Source: Sphaerochaetaceae bacterium
GTDB lineage: Bacteria; Spirochaetota; Spirochaetia; Sphaerochaetales; Sphaerochaetaceae
Reading direction: 5' to 3'
NCBI GenBank assembly: GCA_024684115.1
Contig: JAIKXP010000014.1
Span: 1-38,485 of the forward strand
Length of the DNA: 38,485 bases
How positions within the stretch are numbered: the stretch's first letter is position 1; each line of letters begins with the position of its first letter. Under the pieces are notes generated by a model. That model had not been told where the DNA came from and searched no databases. It was given only the letters and a program-made list of their open reading frames with translations. The position numbers and the translations under genes were made by a program. This document shows positions 4,099-35,593 of this stretch, in pieces.

Positions 4099-4172
4099 TG
4101 AGACCGGGAAGATTCGAACTTCTGACCCTCAGATCCGCAATCTGATGCTCTATCCAGCTGAGCTACGATCTC
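4099..4172 (-). tRNA. tRNA-Arg (anticodon GCG)
   Basis: The cloverleaf folds with acceptor GAGATCG/CGGTCTC, D arm GCTC-AGCTGGATA-GAGC (A20 as in arginine tRNAs), anticodon stem TCAGA/TCTGA, loop TTGCGGA and T loop TTCGAAT. The anticodon is GCG, reading CGC/CGU. Position 73 is A and CCA is not encoded. The outer T-stem pair is A-C (49/65). Most bacteria use ACG (inosine) for this box, so GCG is unusual. It has its own promoter and terminator. Confidence 0.9.
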
Positions 4173-4192
4173 GTTAGCTTTTCAGCGTTTAA

Positions 4193-4221
4193 ATAATATG
4201 CAAAAAGCATATGTTATTCAA
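4193..4221 (-). promoter_or_regulatory. Promoter of tRNA-Arg
   Basis: On the minus strand TTGAAT (4221-4216), 17-nt spacer, TATTAT (4198-4193). Start expected near 4186, about 14 nt before the tRNA. The spacer holds a small palindrome, GCATAT/ATATGC (4196-4201 / 4207-4212). Confidence 0.6.
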
Positions 4222-4258
4222 GAAAAATAAATCCCTGAGCTTCTCTGCAACAGGGATT
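4221..4258 (-). terminator. Terminator after the tRNA-Ser(TGA)-tRNA-Ser(GCT) unit
   Basis: Stem AATCCCTG/CAGGGATT (4230-4237 / 4251-4258) with a 13-nt loop, followed on the minus strand by TATTTTTCTT. It begins 6 nt beyond tRNA-Ser(GCT) and abuts the -35 of the tRNA-Arg promoter. Confidence 0.8.
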
Positions 4259-4264
4259 ATATCT

Positions 4265-4351
4265 CGGAGTGACGGGGATTTGAACCCCGGATACCGTTAC
4301 CAGTATACTTCCTTAGCAGGGAAGCGCCTTCGACCACTCGGCCATCGCTCC
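4265..4351 (-). tRNA. tRNA-Ser (anticodon GCT)
   Basis: Class II tRNA with a long variable arm. Anticodon stem CTTCC/GGAAG and loop CTGCTAA give anticodon GCT (AGC/AGU codons). T arm CGGGG-TTCAAAT-CCCCG is perfect. Discriminator G73, CCA not encoded. The acceptor stem has one C-A mispair at 5/68 (GGAGCGA / TCACTCC). Confidence 0.92.
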
Positions 4352-4370
4352 AGGTCCCGTCAAGGACAAT

Positions 4371-4455
4371 CGGATGGAGAGGGATTCGAACCGCCGGAGG
4401 CTTGCACCTCAACGGTTTTCAAGACTGCCTCCGTCGGCCTCTCGGACATCCATCC
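4371..4455 (-). tRNA. tRNA-Ser (anticodon TGA)
   Basis: Class II tRNA with acceptor GGATGGA/TCCATCC fully paired, loop CTTGAAA giving anticodon TGA (UCA/UCG codons), and a 4-bp variable arm GAGG/CCTC. Discriminator G73, no CCA. The anticodon stem GCAGT/ACCGT has an internal A-C mispair and the T stem GGCGG/CCCTC an internal C-C mispair, which is odd for the tRNA normally needed for UCA. It is the first gene of a two-tRNA unit, 19 nt upstream of tRNA-Ser(GCT). Confidence 0.85.
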
Positions 4456-4469
4456 AATCTGCTTTATGC

Positions 4470-4498
4470 AATATAAGCAAAGAATAGCTCTTTGTCAA
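4470..4498 (-). promoter_or_regulatory. Strong promoter of the tRNA-Ser(TGA)-Ser(GCT) unit
   Basis: On the minus strand consensus TTGACA (4498-4493), 17-nt spacer, TATATT (4475-4470). Transcription should start near 4463, 8 nt before the mature tRNA end. Confidence 0.75.
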
Positions 4499-4512
4499 GC
4501 AAGAAGAAAAAA

Positions 4513-4610
4513 GGGACAAATCACCCGAATCTCTCTGGCAATCCACTTACCGTTGCTACATTCCTGTCCTGGCGGGGTTGGGCGGCTGTCAGCAGCTCGG
4601 AATCTGTCCC
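4513..4610 (-). ncRNA. ffs: 4.5S signal recognition particle RNA
   Basis: About 98 nt. The minus strand carries the SRP domain IV core: CCAGGACA, a GGAA tetraloop closed by ACA/UGU, then UGUAGCAACGGUAAG. This matches the Ffh-binding hairpin, with the AGCA/CAGG symmetric loop kept and the tetraloop-closing pairs differing from E. coli. The ends pair as GGGACA...TGTCCC and the 3' end runs straight into TTTTTT (complement of 4507-4512), so the long hairpin also acts as its terminator. The RNA pairs with Ffh to target nascent membrane proteins, work that continues with YidC encoded elsewhere in this window. Ends are inferred from pairing. Confidence 0.88.
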
Positions 4611-4616
4611 ACAGAT

Positions 4617-4645
4617 AAATTACTAGATTTTTAAATAAATGAAAA
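4617..4645 (-). promoter_or_regulatory. Probable promoter of the SRP RNA
   Basis: On the minus strand TTTTCA (4645-4640), 17-nt spacer, TAATTT (4622-4617), placing the start at about 4610, the base at which the closing helix of the RNA begins. Both hexamers are moderate matches. Confidence 0.4.
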
Positions 4646-4660
4646 CCCTGTGAGGGCAAG

Positions 4661-4686
4661 AAAAAAGCTCCAGATTTAACTGGAGC
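4661..4686 (-). terminator. Terminator after tRNA-Ser(GGA)
   Basis: Perfect 7-bp stem GCTCCAG/CTGGAGC (4667-4673 / 4680-4686), 6-nt loop, then TTTTTT on the minus strand. Confidence 0.92.
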
Positions 4687-4695
4687 CCATTTTAG

Positions 4696-4781
4696 CGGAG
4701 AGAGGGGGATTCGAACCCCCGATGGCTTTTGACCATACACGACTTCCAATCGTGCACCTTCGACCACTCGGACATCTCTCC
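4696..4781 (-). tRNA. tRNA-Ser (anticodon GGA)
   Basis: Class II tRNA with all stems paired: acceptor GGAGAGA/TCTCTCC, anticodon stem CACGA/TCGTG with loop TTGGAAG (anticodon GGA, UCC/UCU codons), T arm GGGGG-TTCGAAT-CCCCC. Discriminator G73, CCA not encoded. Confidence 0.95.
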
Positions 4782-16654: not shown

Positions 16655-18019
16655 TTATCTGGGCCTTGAACTCAGAGCTTTGAATACGTCCCCTATCTTT
16701 CTGCAGCCCAGAAGCTTCACTGAGGTTTTGTCTTTAAGTGAGCTGTACATGGAGGCTGCAAGGAAGGCTTTTTTGAAGCCCATATCCTCTGTGGACTTGA
16801 TTCTTCTCTCCCCGTGGCTTACCGGTCTGACTTCTCCGGACAGGGACAGTTCTCCCATCCACACGGCATCTTTATCAAGTGCAATACCGGTAGCTGCAGA
16901 CCAGATTGCAGCAGCTGTTGCCAGTTCTACGGAAACTTCGTTTACCCTGATTCCTCCGGCAACATTTATGTATATGTCCCTCTCTCCGAGCCTCAGTCCT
17001 GCGTGCCTTTCAAGTATGGCAGCTGTCCTCATAATCCTCTGGCTTTCTATCTTCTCTGAATAGACGCGGGTATAGGAGCCCTTAGCTTCAGTTACAAGGG
17101 CCTGTATTTCAACCACAAAGGTTCTGGAGCCTTCGGATATGGTTGCATATGCAATTCCCGGCGGAAGCTCTTCATTTTCCCTTTTTGAAATGAAGAAGGA
17201 AGAGGCGTCCTTAACCGGAACAAGACCGGAAGAGCCCATTTCAAAGATTCCTATCTCATCTGCTGCTCCAAACCTGTTCTTTGAGGCCCTTATGAGCCTT
17301 ATGTCCAGGGAGGACTCTTCAAAATAGAGCACTGTATCTACCATGTGTTCTATGATCTTAGGTCCGGCTATGGTTCCTTCCTTCGTAACGTGACCTATGA
17401 AGAAAACGGAGCTCTGAACCTGTTTTGCCACGCTGTTTATCTCAAGACAGCAGCCCCTCATCTGGGGAACAGAACCAGGAACGGAGCTGAACTCTTCGCT
17501 GAGAACGGTCTGGAGTGAGTCTATTATTACAAGGGAAGGCTTCTCTGTGCGTATTACGTGGCATATGGCTTCAAGATGTGTTTCACAGAGTATGTTTATC
17601 CTGTCCAGGTCAAGGTTGAGCCTTTCGGCCCTCTGACGCACCTGGGAAGCGCTCTCCTCTCCCGAGACGTACAGCACAAGACCCCTGGCTGCACACAGGT
17701 GGCAGACCTGAAGCATGAGGGTGGATTTTCCAATTCCAGGCTCTCCACCCACAAGAACTGATGAACCATGGACTATTCCTCCTCCCAGAACCCTGTCCAG
17801 TTCGGAGATTCCGCTTGAGAACCTGAATTCCTTCTCTACGGGGATGGAAGAAAGGCTTTGTGAGGAAGCCTTACTAACTGTAGTACCCTTTTTGGAGACC
17901 ACAGTCTTCTCTTCTTCAAACGTATTCCATGATCCGCAGGACGGACAGCGCCCGAGCCACTTTGGGCTCGAGTGTCCGCATTCGCTGCAATAAAATCTTG
18001 TAACTTCAGTCTTAGCCAT
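16655..18019 (-). CDS. radA: DNA repair protein RadA (Sms)
   Basis: The protein has 454 residues, the usual length. Zinc finger C11/C14/C25/C28, Walker A GGEPGIGKST (91-100), the RadA-specific KNRFG motif (about 250-255) and a C-terminal Lon-like domain are all present. It is a RecA-like helicase that promotes branch migration in recombination. The ATG has no Shine-Dalgarno and lies 10 nt after the immunophilin stop codon, so it may be read by coupling or from a weak TCTAAT hexamer 9 nt upstream. Confidence 0.96.
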   Translation of the reverse strand: MAKTEVTRFYCSECGHSSPKWLGRCPSCGSWNTFEEEKTVVSKKGTTVSKASSQSLSSIPVEKEFRFSSGISELDRVLGGGIVHGSSVLVGGEPGIGKSTLMLQVCHLCAARGLVLYVSGEESASQVRQRAERLNLDLDRINILCETHLEAICHVIRTEKPSLVIIDSLQTVLSEEFSSVPGSVPQMRGCCLEINSVAKQVQSSVFFIGHVTKEGTIAGPKIIEHMVDTVLYFEESSLDIRLIRASKNRFGAADEIGIFEMGSSGLVPVKDASSFFISKRENEELPPGIAYATISEGSRTFVVEIQALVTEAKGSYTRVYSEKIESQRIMRTAAILERHAGLRLGERDIYINVAGGIRVNEVSVELATAAAIWSAATGIALDKDAVWMGELSLSGEVRPVSHGERRIKSTEDMGFKKAFLAASMYSSLKDKTSVKLLGCRKIGDVFKALSSRPR

Positions 18020-25982: not shown

Positions 25983-27380
25983 ATGGCTTCAGATAATAAA
26001 GACAGAACTGCCGAACTCTGGGAAAGGGCTAACGCAGTCATAAAGGAAAGAATTCCGGAATCAGAGTACAAGACCTGGTTCACAAGAATAAACTTAGGCT
26101 CTCTTGAAGACGGTAAAATCACGCTCTACGCCAATTCTGCCTTCTTCAGGGATAATTTCTCAAAAACTTACAAAAGTCTCGTTGAGGACGCTTTAAACAG
26201 CCTTGGCGAAGGGAATTTCGCTGTAGATGTAAAGATAAAGTCACAGAAGGCCGAATCAGAAAACAAAGCAGCCGATAAGGAAACAGATAAGCTTCCTAAA
26301 GTACAGAAGGATAAACCTTTGGAGAGAAAGACAAACAGAAAAGACGTAGTTTTAAACAGCGCCTATACGTTTGATTCTTTCGTTCCGGGAGACAACAGCA
26401 ACTTTGCCTACAGTGCCTGTCTGGCCATAGCAAAAAATCCGGGCTCGGTATATAACCCGTGTCTGATCTACGGCGGAGTAGGTCTCGGAAAAACACACCT
26501 TCTCCAGAGTATTGGAAACTACGTTCAGCAGAATACAAACCTAAAGGTTATGTATGTTACGGCCGAGAACTTTACAAACGAGTTCATCCAGTCAATCAAC
26601 GACAGAACCACAAGACAGTTTCAGAACAAATACAGAAAGGTCTCCGTTCTGCTCATAGATGATATTCAGTTTCTCCAGAAAAAGGCAGAAACACAGAATG
26701 AGCTCTTCAATACCTTCAATGATCTCTACGACACCGGAAGGCAGATAGTCTTCACCTGTGATAGACCGGTAGAAGAACTTAAAGACATAACGGACAGGCT
26801 GAGAAGCCGCTTCTCCAGAGGCCTAAACATTGACATTCAGCCACCAGATTTCGAGACAAGAATGGCCATTTTGAGGGCCAAGTGCAACGAGAAGAAATTC
26901 CCTATTAATAATGATGTACTTGAGTATATTGCAAACAATATTTCAAGTAACGTCAGGGCTCTCGAATCCTGTATTACAAAGCTCATGGCTTACAGCACTC
27001 TTCTTCAGAAGGACATCTCTATTGAAACAGCAAAAGAGCAGCTGGGTCAGATTATAAATTCCAACAAGGATACGTCCGGAATATCTATTGACCTGATCAT
27101 AAAGACAGTCGCTTCTTACTACAATGTATCTTCTTATGACATAAAAGGTAAGAGCAAGAGTCAGAGCATTGTACTTCCAAGAAAGATTGCCATGTATCTC
27201 TGCCGTAATCTGACTGATTTTTCAACAACCGAGATTGCATCAGAATTCGGAGGAAAGAACCATACTACAGTTATATACAGTATAGAAAAGGTAGAATCTT
27301 TACTCAAATCCTCTGATAACGACACTTCTGCAGTTATTGAAAAGCTCAAGAACCAGATAAAAAACGAGAGTAAAAGGTAA
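25983..27380 (+). CDS. dnaA: Replication initiator DnaA
   Basis: The protein has 465 residues. Domain I (1-80, ELWERANAVIKERIPESEYKTW split around W32), a charged linker (85-125), AAA+ core with Walker A GGVGLGKT (164-171), Walker B LLIDDIQ and arginine-finger region LRSRFSRG, and domain IV with the DnaA signature SEFGGKNHTTV (about 418-428). It opens oriC and binds DnaA boxes. The ATG lacks a Shine-Dalgarno. It is followed by a 224-bp spacer with box-like sites, then dnaN. Confidence 0.98.
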   Translation: MASDNKDRTAELWERANAVIKERIPESEYKTWFTRINLGSLEDGKITLYANSAFFRDNFSKTYKSLVEDALNSLGEGNFAVDVKIKSQKAESENKAADKETDKLPKVQKDKPLERKTNRKDVVLNSAYTFDSFVPGDNSNFAYSACLAIAKNPGSVYNPCLIYGGVGLGKTHLLQSIGNYVQQNTNLKVMYVTAENFTNEFIQSINDRTTRQFQNKYRKVSVLLIDDIQFLQKKAETQNELFNTFNDLYDTGRQIVFTCDRPVEELKDITDRLRSRFSRGLNIDIQPPDFETRMAILRAKCNEKKFPINNDVLEYIANNISSNVRALESCITKLMAYSTLLQKDISIETAKEQLGQIINSNKDTSGISIDLIIKTVASYYNVSSYDIKGKSKSQSIVLPRKIAMYLCRNLTDFSTTEIASEFGGKNHTTVIYSIEKVESLLKSSDNDTSAVIEKLKNQIKNESKR

Positions 27381-27604
27381 AAACAAAGCTGTTCATAACC
27401 TGTGTAATTCCTGATGGATTTCACTCTGCTTCTGTGGAAAAAAATTTTTCTGTGGAATTCATGATTTTCATTTAAGAATTTACGTGTGTTTTATTCTTAT
27501 CAAATACAAGGACTTACTAGGTTATGCACAATTTTTGTGATATTATTACTACGACTACGAAAAAAATTAAATCACTATTAGTTTAGTAACCGGAGATAGA
27601 AAAA
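27381..27604. other. dnaA-dnaN spacer, candidate oriC
   Basis: Non-coding. TTATGCACA (27522-27530) fits TTATNCACA exactly. Near-matches on the other strand: TTATGAACA (27390-27398), TTTTCCACA (27433-27441), AATTCCACA (27451-27459) and AATTACACA (27401-27409). TTCTGTGGAA is repeated at 27430-27439 and 27448-27457. An extended -10 for dnaN (TGATATTAT, 27538-27546) follows the perfect box, which covers the -35 position, so DnaA could repress dnaN. GGAG precedes the dnaN ATG. Confidence 0.6.
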
Positions 27605-33348: not shown

Positions 33349-33370
33349 TCTGGATAAAAGATTAATTATG

Positions 33371-33404
33371 GGATCATGACAAAAAAGTCATGATCCTTTT
33401 TTTT
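33371..33404 (+). terminator. Terminator of yidC-khpB
   Basis: Perfect 10-bp stem GGATCATGAC/GTCATGATCC, AAAAAA loop, then eight T. It lies between convergent khpB and the kinase gene. Confidence 0.95.
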
Positions 33405-33433: not shown

Positions 33434-34453
33434 TCAGTTCTGATTTCTCCAGCTTCCTGATTCAAGCATGGCCTTAAGTTCCTTTCCCTTTTCTTCGGTG
33501 AACTGGGCACCGACCTGCTTGATTATCTGGCCTGCGAGGATGGAGGCAATGGTGCCGCTGTCAACAACATCATAACCCTTGCAGAGGCCGTACAGGAAAC
33601 CGGCTGCATAGGTGTCTCCGGCTCCTGTGGTATCTACAGGAACAGATGGACCCTTAACCGGAATCTCAAAGATTTCTCCTCTGTAGGAGATGAATGAACC
33701 CTTCTTTCCGTTCTTGACTATGGCTGTCTCACAGAGTTTGCCCATGCTCTTGCAGCAAAGCTCAGGATCGTAGTTGTCAAACATGATTCTGGCTTCTTCC
33801 TTGTTTGCAAAAACAATGTCACAGCTGGATTTGATTATGTCCAGGAAGGCATCTCTGTTTCTTCCTACGGCAAACTGATCGGCTATGTCAAAGGAAATCC
33901 TGGCTCCGCTTGATTTGGCAGTGTCTATGGCCTTGTAGATGGCCTCAGTCTGGTTCTTTGTATCAAGCATGTAACCGGTGAAGTGGAAGAAATCAGCCTT
34001 TTTGAGAGTTTCAGTGTTTATGTCTGAAAGACAGAAGTCCCTGTTTGCACCAAGGAAGGTGTTCATGGTTCTGTCAGAATCCGGAGTAATAAGGATTATG
34101 GATGAACCGGTCGGATTCTCTGAAATGCACAGATTATCTTCTACGCTGAGATTCTTGAGGTTCTTTTTATAGATTTCTCCATATTCATCATTACCGACCT
34201 TACCTGCCAGAGCGGTATCTACGCCCATGGCCCTGAGGGTAATTATTGTGTTAGGGCAGGATCCTCCGCATGAGAAGGAAGGTGTCTTATTCTCCTTGAT
34301 GTATTTTGAAAGCTCAAGGCGCTTGTCAACATCAATAAGATTCATGGTTCCCTTGTACAGACCAAGATCCTTAAGTTCTTCGTAAGAAACGGGAACAATT
34401 ACGTCTATAAGGGGATTACCAATTCCATAAACAAAAGGAGTCTGATTCTTCAT
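33434..34453 (-). CDS. PfkB-family sugar/nucleoside kinase
   Basis: The protein has 339 residues from ATG at 34453 (MKNQTPFVYGIGNPLIDVIV). Glycine-rich SCGGSCPNTI in the substrate lid and C-terminal DTTGAGDTYAAGFLYG with the catalytic Asp identify a ribokinase-fold kinase; overall order is closest to adenosine-kinase or ribokinase-like members, substrate unproven. The frame runs upstream to 34594, but that extension has no family character; ATG at 34462 (MNH) is an alternative. An extended -10 TGATAGAAT ends 7 nt before 34453, suggesting a leaderless message. An inverted repeat covers this area. Confidence 0.88.
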   Translation of the reverse strand: MKNQTPFVYGIGNPLIDVIVPVSYEELKDLGLYKGTMNLIDVDKRLELSKYIKENKTPSFSCGGSCPNTIITLRAMGVDTALAGKVGNDEYGEIYKKNLKNLSVEDNLCISENPTGSSIILITPDSDRTMNTFLGANRDFCLSDINTETLKKADFFHFTGYMLDTKNQTEAIYKAIDTAKSSGARISFDIADQFAVGRNRDAFLDIIKSSCDIVFANKEEARIMFDNYDPELCCKSMGKLCETAIVKNGKKGSFISYRGEIFEIPVKGPSVPVDTTGAGDTYAAGFLYGLCKGYDVVDSGTIASILAGQIIKQVGAQFTEEKGKELKAMLESGSWRNQN

Positions 34454-34472
34454 GTGATTCATTCTATCACAT
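34452..34472. promoter_or_regulatory. Inverted repeat over the kinase -10 and start codon
   Basis: Perfect 7-bp arms ATGTGAT (34452-34458) and ATCACAT (34466-34472) with a 7-bp centre. On the minus strand it overlaps the -10 (TAGAAT, 34466-34461), the transcription start and the first ATG bases: an operator-like dyad. The spacing (TGTGA-N9-TCACA) is wider than a CRP site (N6). Confidence 0.6.
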
Positions 34473-34831
34473 AAACCTCTAGTGCATACATTCAGTTTTT
34501 TCTTATTAAGTAATTTTTTTATATTTTCATGCAACAGCAAGAGAAAAAGGGTTAACAGAAAATTTATACACACACTATTGCACAAGAATTGCACAACTTC
34601 ATGTATAAAACTGTGAAATTATGTGTCTGCGTATCGCGGAAAAACTCGGAAGGATAGGTTTACAACGGAACAATTTGATGAATAATTCCTTTTAATGAAA
34701 TAAGTTATTTATTCTCTTTTTATTTCCGTCTATTTAAAAGTTATATAGAAATTAATTTGAAATAATTTGAAAAAACATGGGTTTCTGAGAGTTTTATCAA
34801 AGGGTTTTGCACAAGAATTGCACAAGCTGTT
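34473..34831. other. Non-coding region with iterons and a DnaA box
   Basis: 359 bp without a convincing gene. A perfect 19-bp repeat, TTGCACAAGAATTGCACAA, occurs at 34578-34596 and 34807-34825 in the same orientation; each copy holds two TTGCACAA units 11 bp apart. TTATACACA (34564-34572) is a consensus DnaA box. TTTATACA/TGTATAAA (34563-34570 / 34602-34609) flank the first copy. The middle is AT-rich. ORFs of 18 and 24 codons starting at 34601 and 34621 lack ribosome sites. Confidence 0.8.
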
Positions 34832-35593
34832 TTAAAGTGATTCTGAAATGGTCTGAAGGGCTGCTACAGCGTACAAAGCTGCCGTTTCACAGCGTAAAAT
34901 GTTGGTTTTCAGTAAAATAGGCTCGAATCCGCCGGCCATCAGCAGCTCACATTCTTCGTCGGTAAACCCACCCTCAGGACCTATGATGACGGCGTATGGA
35001 CCGGCTGTTCCCTGAAGAGCCTGAAGGAGGTTTCTCTGCGTCTCTGTGAGTCTGTTCTGGTGGAAGAAAAAACCTTTTTCGCCGCAGTAGGTGTTTTTGA
35101 AATTAAGCGGAACATCCTTTATATCGACCGGGGCTGTGACCTCGGTCGGAACAAGACTTCCGCTCTGCTGGACAGCTTCCTTCACCATGGCCATATAACG
35201 TGTTGTCCTATTTTCATTTGCTTCGGCTATACAGTTTCTGCTCCTGACCGGAACTATGGCCCTGACGCCCATTTCTGTGGCCCTCTTGATAATCTCATCT
35301 ATCTTCCTTCCCTTGGGCAGGCACTGGTAGAGGATGATTTCTCTTGAGGGTCTGTTTTCCGGAAGAGTGTCCGTAGTCTGCGGAGTCTCTGAAACTTCAC
35401 GGACTGAAAGGGTGCAGCTGCCCTTCCTGATTTTTGTAAGGGTAAGAAGCCAGGTCTTACCAGAGGCATCTCTGCCTGTGATTTCACGCCCTTCCTTCAG
35501 GCGCAGGACGTTGACTATATAGTTGCAGTCGCTGCCTGAGAGGGTGAGTGTTTCCTGGCCACAGAAATCAGGGGGTAGCAGAAAGATTCTCAT
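34832..35593 (-). CDS. rsmE: 16S rRNA m3U1498 methyltransferase RsmE
   Basis: The protein has 253 residues from ATG at 35593 (MRIFLLPPDF). N-terminal PUA-like domain (to about 70) and SPOUT domain with IIGPEGGFTDEE and ILRCETAALYAV, the knotted SAM-binding signature of RsmE. It methylates U1498 of 16S rRNA. The frame extends upstream, but the chosen ATG overlaps the pepP stop by 4 nt (ATGA), the same coupling as lgt-pepP. No terminator hairpin follows. Confidence 0.95.
   Translation of the reverse strand: MRIFLLPPDFCGQETLTLSGSDCNYIVNVLRLKEGREITGRDASGKTWLLTLTKIRKGSCTLSVREVSETPQTTDTLPENRPSREIILYQCLPKGRKIDEIIKRATEMGVRAIVPVRSRNCIAEANENRTTRYMAMVKEAVQQSGSLVPTEVTAPVDIKDVPLNFKNTYCGEKGFFFHQNRLTETQRNLLQALQGTAGPYAVIIGPEGGFTDEECELLMAGGFEPILLKTNILRCETAALYAVAALQTISESL

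Follow-up and report, generated by a model that had tools for sequence, protein, structure and literature searches.

What purpose could a short AT-rich interval serve that carries the same 19 bp twice, some 7 kb from dnaA? The earlier note on this DNA had proposed a DnaA-titrating or auxiliary origin element, the binding array of a separate regulator, or a small-RNA locus. In the window (the whole stretch of 38,485 nt analysed), the 19-mer TTGCACAAGAATTGCACAA is present as that note had read it, in two perfect copies (34578–34596 and 34807–34825) lying 229 bp apart from start to start. At up to three mismatches the window contains 2 occurrences where 0.02 would be expected by chance, and the genome search suggested in the note found only these two, the 1.58-Mb assembly having no third copy at up to three mismatches. 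Evidence for the pair comes from pattern searches and reading of the sequence, because the automated repeat finder did not report it. The unit TTGCACAA occurs exactly four times in the window, every time inside the 19-mer copies, each of which holds two units 11 bp apart. Four iterons had been proposed; the units are there, but comparison with relatives, described below, identifies them not as plain iterons but as drifted DnaA boxes belonging to a lineage whose DnaA is altered.

Alignments, weight-matrix scans and an information profile delimit the whole paired DnaA-box element to 34564–34826; the wider limits drawn earlier (34473–34831) enclose a real element, but the functional stretch is better placed between these narrower coordinates. 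Its outermost left box, L1 (34564–34572, plus strand), is the exact consensus match TTATACACA already noticed beside the first repeat, and the alignment has TTACGCACA, TTTTACACA and TTATGCACA at this position in the three sister species. The left tandem pair, TATTGCACA + AATTGCACA (34576–34595, plus strand; weight-matrix score 30.0), has its boxes 11 bp apart, contains copy 1 of the 19-mer and is kept in 4/4 genus genomes. The right tandem pair (34805–34824, plus strand; score 30.5) has the same 11-bp distance and contains copy 2; it consists of TTTTGCACA (34805–34813), the near-consensus box previously seen to overlap the second repeat, and AATTGCACA. The spacer is AT-rich, as had been claimed, with an AT content of 0.72. 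It holds two cores: core 1 (34679–34706), an AT-rich motif with the family consensus TgtcAAnTTnTTnTAtnnaAAAnAAaTAA, and core 2, AAAnTTATATAAgTTTT (34736–34751), with TATATA at 34742–34747. Single DnaA-box matches are not enriched in the window (25 observed, 28.9 expected by chance); what is non-random is the arrangement of the boxes and its conservation, not their number.

The element starts 7.2 kb beyond the stop of dnaA (25983–27380, plus strand), in line with the earlier estimate of about 7 kb. In the recognition helix of its product the signature reads GGKNHTTV, N replacing the D of most relatives. The dnaA–dnaN intergenic region (27381–27604), the probable oriC, has DnaA boxes of its own, namely TTATGAACA (27390, minus), TTTTCCACA (27433, minus) and TTATGCACA (27522, plus), and a skew change adjoins it. 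The gene rsmE (34832–35593, minus strand; the name is taken from the earlier note) has ended before the element, as stated there; it abuts the element with its 3′ end, which faces it because the gene ends at 34832 on the minus strand. A gene at 33434–34462 (minus strand), which we take by likeness to encode a PfkB-type sugar/nucleoside kinase, points its 5′ end at the element in this species; the start-proximal promoter that the earlier note gave it is at most a candidate. The names murA, jag and recF, and the labels ahcY-like and gcvT-like, are likewise putative, assigned by sequence likeness rather than by family search. A strong terminator-like hairpin follows jag at 33370–33397, the position that is home to the element in many other families. 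Elsewhere in the window, four tRNA genes are clustered with an SRP small RNA (Rfam) on the minus strand at 4099–4781.

The earlier note had pointed to related Treponema. The nearest named relatives are instead Sphaerochaetaceae and Spirochaetales MAGs, several from rumen or gut; Treponema was rejected as the host on this ground, the attribution being wrong at the level of the family. Absence of the repeats from close relatives, which the earlier note would have counted against its reading, was not found: both 19-mer copies stand 229 bp apart next to the rsmE stop in 4/4 species of the genus. The element aligns without a gap in the four genomes, with a spacer identity of only 43–77%, and no small ORF across the spacer is common to the four species. 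In G003 (L145), a 463-aa ORF lies between the element and the kinase, and a shorter insert is found in G001, pointing to recent insertion.

These sequences also bear on the suggestion that the locus is a small-RNA gene or encodes a structured RNA, a disfavoured reading that we regard as very improbable. RNAalifold does fold the four genus sequences better than column shuffles (z −6.6, plus strand), and helix 2 contains 5 pairs changed on both sides, but the structure itself derives from these four AT-rich sequences, of which one is an outlier. Plus-strand folds of 40 of 67 elements are near shuffles (mean z −0.52); on the minus strand, these 40 fold slightly better than shuffles (mean z −1.24), a signal that may stem from terminators of inward-reading genes. 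No Rfam family reaches its gathering score (best 21.3 bits vs 75), and the spacer sequence is not conserved.

In the rest of Sphaerochaetaceae, the element reads NNTTNCACAAGTTATCCACA, that is, two same-strand DnaA boxes 11 bp apart, occurring twice, with a pair-to-pair distance of mostly 208–237 bp around fixed AT-rich cores. Other genera possess a two-cluster element downstream of rsmE with the units TTATGCACA (G010, G011, G015) or TTATCCACA (G012). When 21 stretches surrounding dnaA and rsmE were scanned, most family genomes showed a paired cluster in addition to that in the dnaA–dnaN gap. Fifteen aligned elements share two tandem same-strand boxes 11 bp apart per side and an invariant TATATA between the sides. 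A weight matrix trained on these 15 elements finds the pair in non-training genomes (G004, G006, G007, G009, G014, G017) and outside the family (G027, G034, G037), the score in per-locus shuffles being at most 18.

Named species genomes, scanned with a kinase alignment, provided 80 loci, Sphaerochaeta halotolerans and Ornithospirochaeta among them; their presence puts the window within Sphaerochaetaceae or beside it. With a score of at least 35 counted as presence, the pair lies upstream of the kinase in 61/80 loci (9 of the 61 being training genomes) and in 53/62 where the upstream sequence is at least 4 kb long. Scores this high occur in 2/80 loci on the opposite strand or on the downstream side, and in 0/80 after shuffling. 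It is absent in 19/80, several of which have short flanks. Conservation of the repeats thus extends to family-level loci, and a recognisable form is found in other families. Spacings in the 61 loci are 208 (6 loci), 211 (1), 220–223 (12), 228–233 (41) and 237 bp (1). Helical phasing of the pair spacings (p 0.023; within-family resultant 0.54; a hand-made list of 39 spacings) is only suggestive, as the signal is weak. For the inner anatomy, 56 of 67 elements were anchored on TATATA (effective number 35), and the 11 without this anchor were left out. In the resulting profile, the left pair lies about 165 bp before TATATA, core 1 occupies positions −63 to −36, and core 2 follows, sitting 53–54 or 62–64 bp before the right pair.

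Two promoter readings were considered. The 19-mer resembles a sigma-54 promoter (TTGCAC-N5-TTGCA), lacking only the first G of the −24/−12 consensus. This candidate was dropped because neither the first-G position nor the −12 GC is constant from species to species, because the two copies would fire towards rsmE in antisense direction, and because the family consensus is the DnaA box. A sigma-70 scan found sites no commoner than in shuffles (3 vs 3.7), one of them at 34659, within the element.

The second reading is a DnaA-controlled promoter whose boxes regulate a neighbouring gene, here the kinase; we judge it very unlikely. DnaA can serve as a transcription factor, according to the accessible part of PMC9879097, and in the genus studied here the kinase start faces the element at a distance of about 100 bp; however, the distance from element to kinase is about 0.47 kb in G001 and about 2 kb in G003, compared with about 0.12 kb in G002, and this inserted DNA indicates that in G001 and G003 the element stays with rsmE, not with the kinase. 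Over a wider range the neighbours change (kinase, murA, rsmE, a response-regulator-like gene and others) and the element stays. Both flanking genes end at it in 12/22 genomes (G004, G006, G008, G012, G014, G017, G018, G020, G022, G023, G024 and G027, with G024 counted via murA from a separate gene-order placement), so that it is not a fixed promoter; flanks do not converge in the genus studied here, G011, G005 and others.

Which protein, then, would recognise the boxes? In 38 genomes with both the element and a dnaA–dnaN gap, four box types were distinguished (TTATGCACA-like, TTATCC, TTTTCC and TTTTCA; G018 and G022 are borderline). For 4/4 types, the type found in the element is the commonest in the gap of the same group, with matching-type densities of 4.7, 4.9, 8.0 and 7.6 per kb. 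This match was reached in 0/5000 permutations, a figure that overstates independence, since the groups are clades and the co-change is spread over few of them. The recognition helix of DnaA varies in parallel, reading KNHTT in 8 of the 38 genomes, KEHTT in 1 and having D elsewhere. Among element boxes, position 5 is G in 31/36 from the 9 genomes with N or E in DnaA versus 3/116 from the 29 genomes with D; in the dnaA–dnaN gap the corresponding counts are 5/10 and 5/90. Co-evolution of DnaA and its boxes is stated in the available text of PMC4285127. Since the element boxes change together with the gap boxes and the recognition helix, DnaA is very probably the ligand of the element.

An array for a different regulator recognising TTGCACAA is, by the same comparison, highly improbable. 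The second box of each pair in this genus, AATTGCACA, does depart from the DnaA consensus, but the same positions outside the genus read TTATGCACA, TTATCCACA or TTTTCCACA, AATTGCACA itself also occurs in the dnaA–dnaN gap of G002 and G010, and the box type follows both the oriC boxes and the DnaA helix. The substitution of GGKNHTTV for GGRDHTTV in this and nearby genera, together with G at box position 5, would represent a natural specificity shift of DnaA. A further variant is found in genus g12 (L126, L272, L280 and relatives), where the entire set of boxes has shifted to TTTTCAACA in both the dnaA–dnaN gap and the element, and the aligned recognition-helix region of DnaA has a one-residue gap.

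Within the class Spirochaetia, some 12 families have similar pairs 6–30 kb downstream of dnaA. Of 198 class genomes, 117 contain a match to a 20-mer tandem-box pattern and none to its reversed control; among the matches listed, many are paired 171–270 bp apart (families f3, f4, f12, f17, f26, f28, f31, f38). Gene order placed 29 genomes, a partly biased sample in that some were picked for having matches, and the element is present in 19 of them. It occupies two homes. In the first, 3′ of jag, it lies 7.2–8.3 kb from the dnaA start and its boxes are on the opposite strand from dnaA (mostly f18, one f26, f27, f28, f31, f34, f38, f40, f43); in the second, 3′ of murA or nearby, the distance is 8.6–30 kb and the boxes share the strand of dnaA (f1, f4, f17, one f26). 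No clear element was found on the dnaN side in 10/29 placed genomes, including those of f19 and f24, and G161, which gave no gene matches, carries no claim. In a less biased set, 22 genomes searched for dnaA yielded 20 stretches, 17 of them long enough to scan; a paired or multiple-box cluster lies near jag in 7/17 (f18, f27, f28, f31, f34, f40, f43), and no such cluster was found there in the other 10/17.

The gene after jag varies (ahcY-like, gcvT-like and others; the G273, G200 and G199 rows were left out). The central sequence differs in other families, and the spacer of G253 is not AT-rich (AT 0.46). Additional tandem-pair elements are found elsewhere in some genomes, at 16946–17212 of L299 (G200), 21701–21992 of L297 (G234) and 1838227–1838463 of L290 (G199) in contig coordinates; such additional elements in other-family genomes have shared central sequences of their own. 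Families f11 and f25 carry a tandem pair immediately upstream of dnaA, not past jag or murA (L207 of G034; L316 of G162).

With DnaA boxes and an AT-rich region, the element resembles an oriC, and its size (about 260 bp), fixed spacing and layout of DnaA clusters around an AT-rich core are origin-like. It could thus be an auxiliary or second origin, where the two DnaA clusters would open the AT-rich centre so that replication begins, either there alone or jointly with the dnaA–dnaN region as a split origin. The core containing TTATATAA could also be a melting site. Against an origin here, core 2 lies at least 50 bp from the nearest boxes, and a separate box cluster persists in most dnaA–dnaN gaps. 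The cumulative skew minimum falls 5.6–5.9 kb past the middle of dnaA in G000, G005, G020, G012 and G008, but in a one-step skew model dnaA beats the element in 7/7 genomes, with log-likelihood deficits of 56.6, 9.2, 3.4, 6.7, 7.2, 10.7 and 5.8 for the element and 1.7, 6.2, 0.2, 3.8, 1.3, 0.8 and 1.1 for dnaA in the same genomes. A skew switch at the element was not seen in these seven genomes, a result decisive only in G024, because the freely fitted change point drifted to −61 kb in G012 and fell at +5.9 kb in G005 and G008. In G024, the element is 29.7 kb from dnaA and the log-likelihood gap is 56.6, which argues decisively against an origin at the element. For the genes that separate dnaA from the element, fourfold-site skew looks leading-like in four of six genomes (G024, G005, G012, G023) and lagging-like in G008; G020 is uninformative. 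The position of oriC between dnaA and dnaN in Borrelia, as given in the accessible text of PMC9879097, also counts against an origin at the element, and we regard this alternative as unlikely.

The titrating or auxiliary option of the earlier note fits the conservation of the boxes and their co-change with DnaA, with binding as the predicted step. We consider the element probably a non-coding DnaA-control locus, proximal to the origin but separate from oriC, and its job quite likely the control of initiation rather than initiation itself or transcription. Its anatomy, conservation, separateness from oriC and co-change with DnaA and the oriC boxes are supported by sequence; from there we infer that DnaA occupies it and does so cooperatively, that the DNA is bent or looped, and in which direction initiation is affected. 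Two tandem box pairs, with the outer left box in this genus, stand about 20–22 helical turns apart around the AT-rich centre. DnaA would bind each pair cooperatively, and the two DnaA clusters could be brought together if the centre is bent, perhaps by the single HU-family protein. Being replicated shortly after initiation, the locus may then lower free or ATP-bound DnaA, by titration or stimulated hydrolysis, in the manner of datA or DnaA-box clusters (DBCs), or alternatively reset DnaA in the manner of DARS; re-initiation would be limited as the outcome. The genome studied here encodes one HU/IHF-family protein, and none of 41 relatives has a match above the cut-off of the Hda profile; E. 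coli-type RIDA is therefore not seen among them. The analogy with datA, DARS and DBC, the one HU/IHF protein and the lack of an Hda match together suggest a locus that soaks up or resets DnaA directly following initiation.

Like these systems, the element has several close DnaA boxes away from oriC, and on our best reading it would share the mode of action of datA, DARS or DnaA-box clusters while differing from them in build. It lies 8–30 kb from oriC in another phylum, and datA and DARS of E. coli are much farther from their oriC than that, which counts against the reading. Both datA and the element are non-coding, intergenic and outside oriC; datA has several DnaA boxes and an IHF site, with a spacing between boxes 2–3 and the IHF site that matters (PMC10950094 and PMC4585315, in their accessible parts), whereas the element has two tandem 11-bp pairs, a rigid spacing and at most a putative IHF-like site. 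Core 1 is perhaps loosely like an HU/IHF-type site: its consensus TGTCAANNNNTT resembles, with a changed base, the consensus WATCAANNNNTTR quoted in the available text of PMC4585315, a weak likeness. The same text describes DARS1 and DARS2 of E. coli as short conserved box clusters with conserved spacings, with IHF and Fis sites in DARS2; the element differs in box arrangement and place. The DARS core consists of three DnaA boxes and stimulates ADP release; the left cluster of the element has three boxes here, but the family consensus is 2+2. Bacillus subtilis has six DBCs outside the origin, whose joint removal leads to early initiation (PMC5295017, as far as accessible), in contrast to one syntenic, geometrically fixed element near oriC here, with extra pairs in some other Spirochaetia families. 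A bipartite oriC, such as that of B. subtilis in the same portion of PMC5295017, likewise has two DnaA-box regions near dnaA, but here the second region is 6–30 kb past dnaA on the dnaN side, and the skew speaks against initiation there.

No publication on such a locus in Spirochaetia was found in the literature searched, in which subscription papers were mostly out of reach. Once-per-cycle initiation control in spirochaetes appears little studied in the searchable literature. More tentatively, as a serious possibility that we would not yet call probable, the element may be an ancient origin satellite of Spirochaetia: a DnaA switch of fixed geometry, 6–30 kb downstream of dnaA and 3′ of jag or murA, that would do the work of RIDA, datA or DARS of Escherichia coli and co-evolve with the recognition helix of DnaA. 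As a conserved and syntenic DnaA element, it lends itself to ChIP, deletion and biochemical work, and the natural box variants with their matching DnaA variants form a ready-made specificity series.
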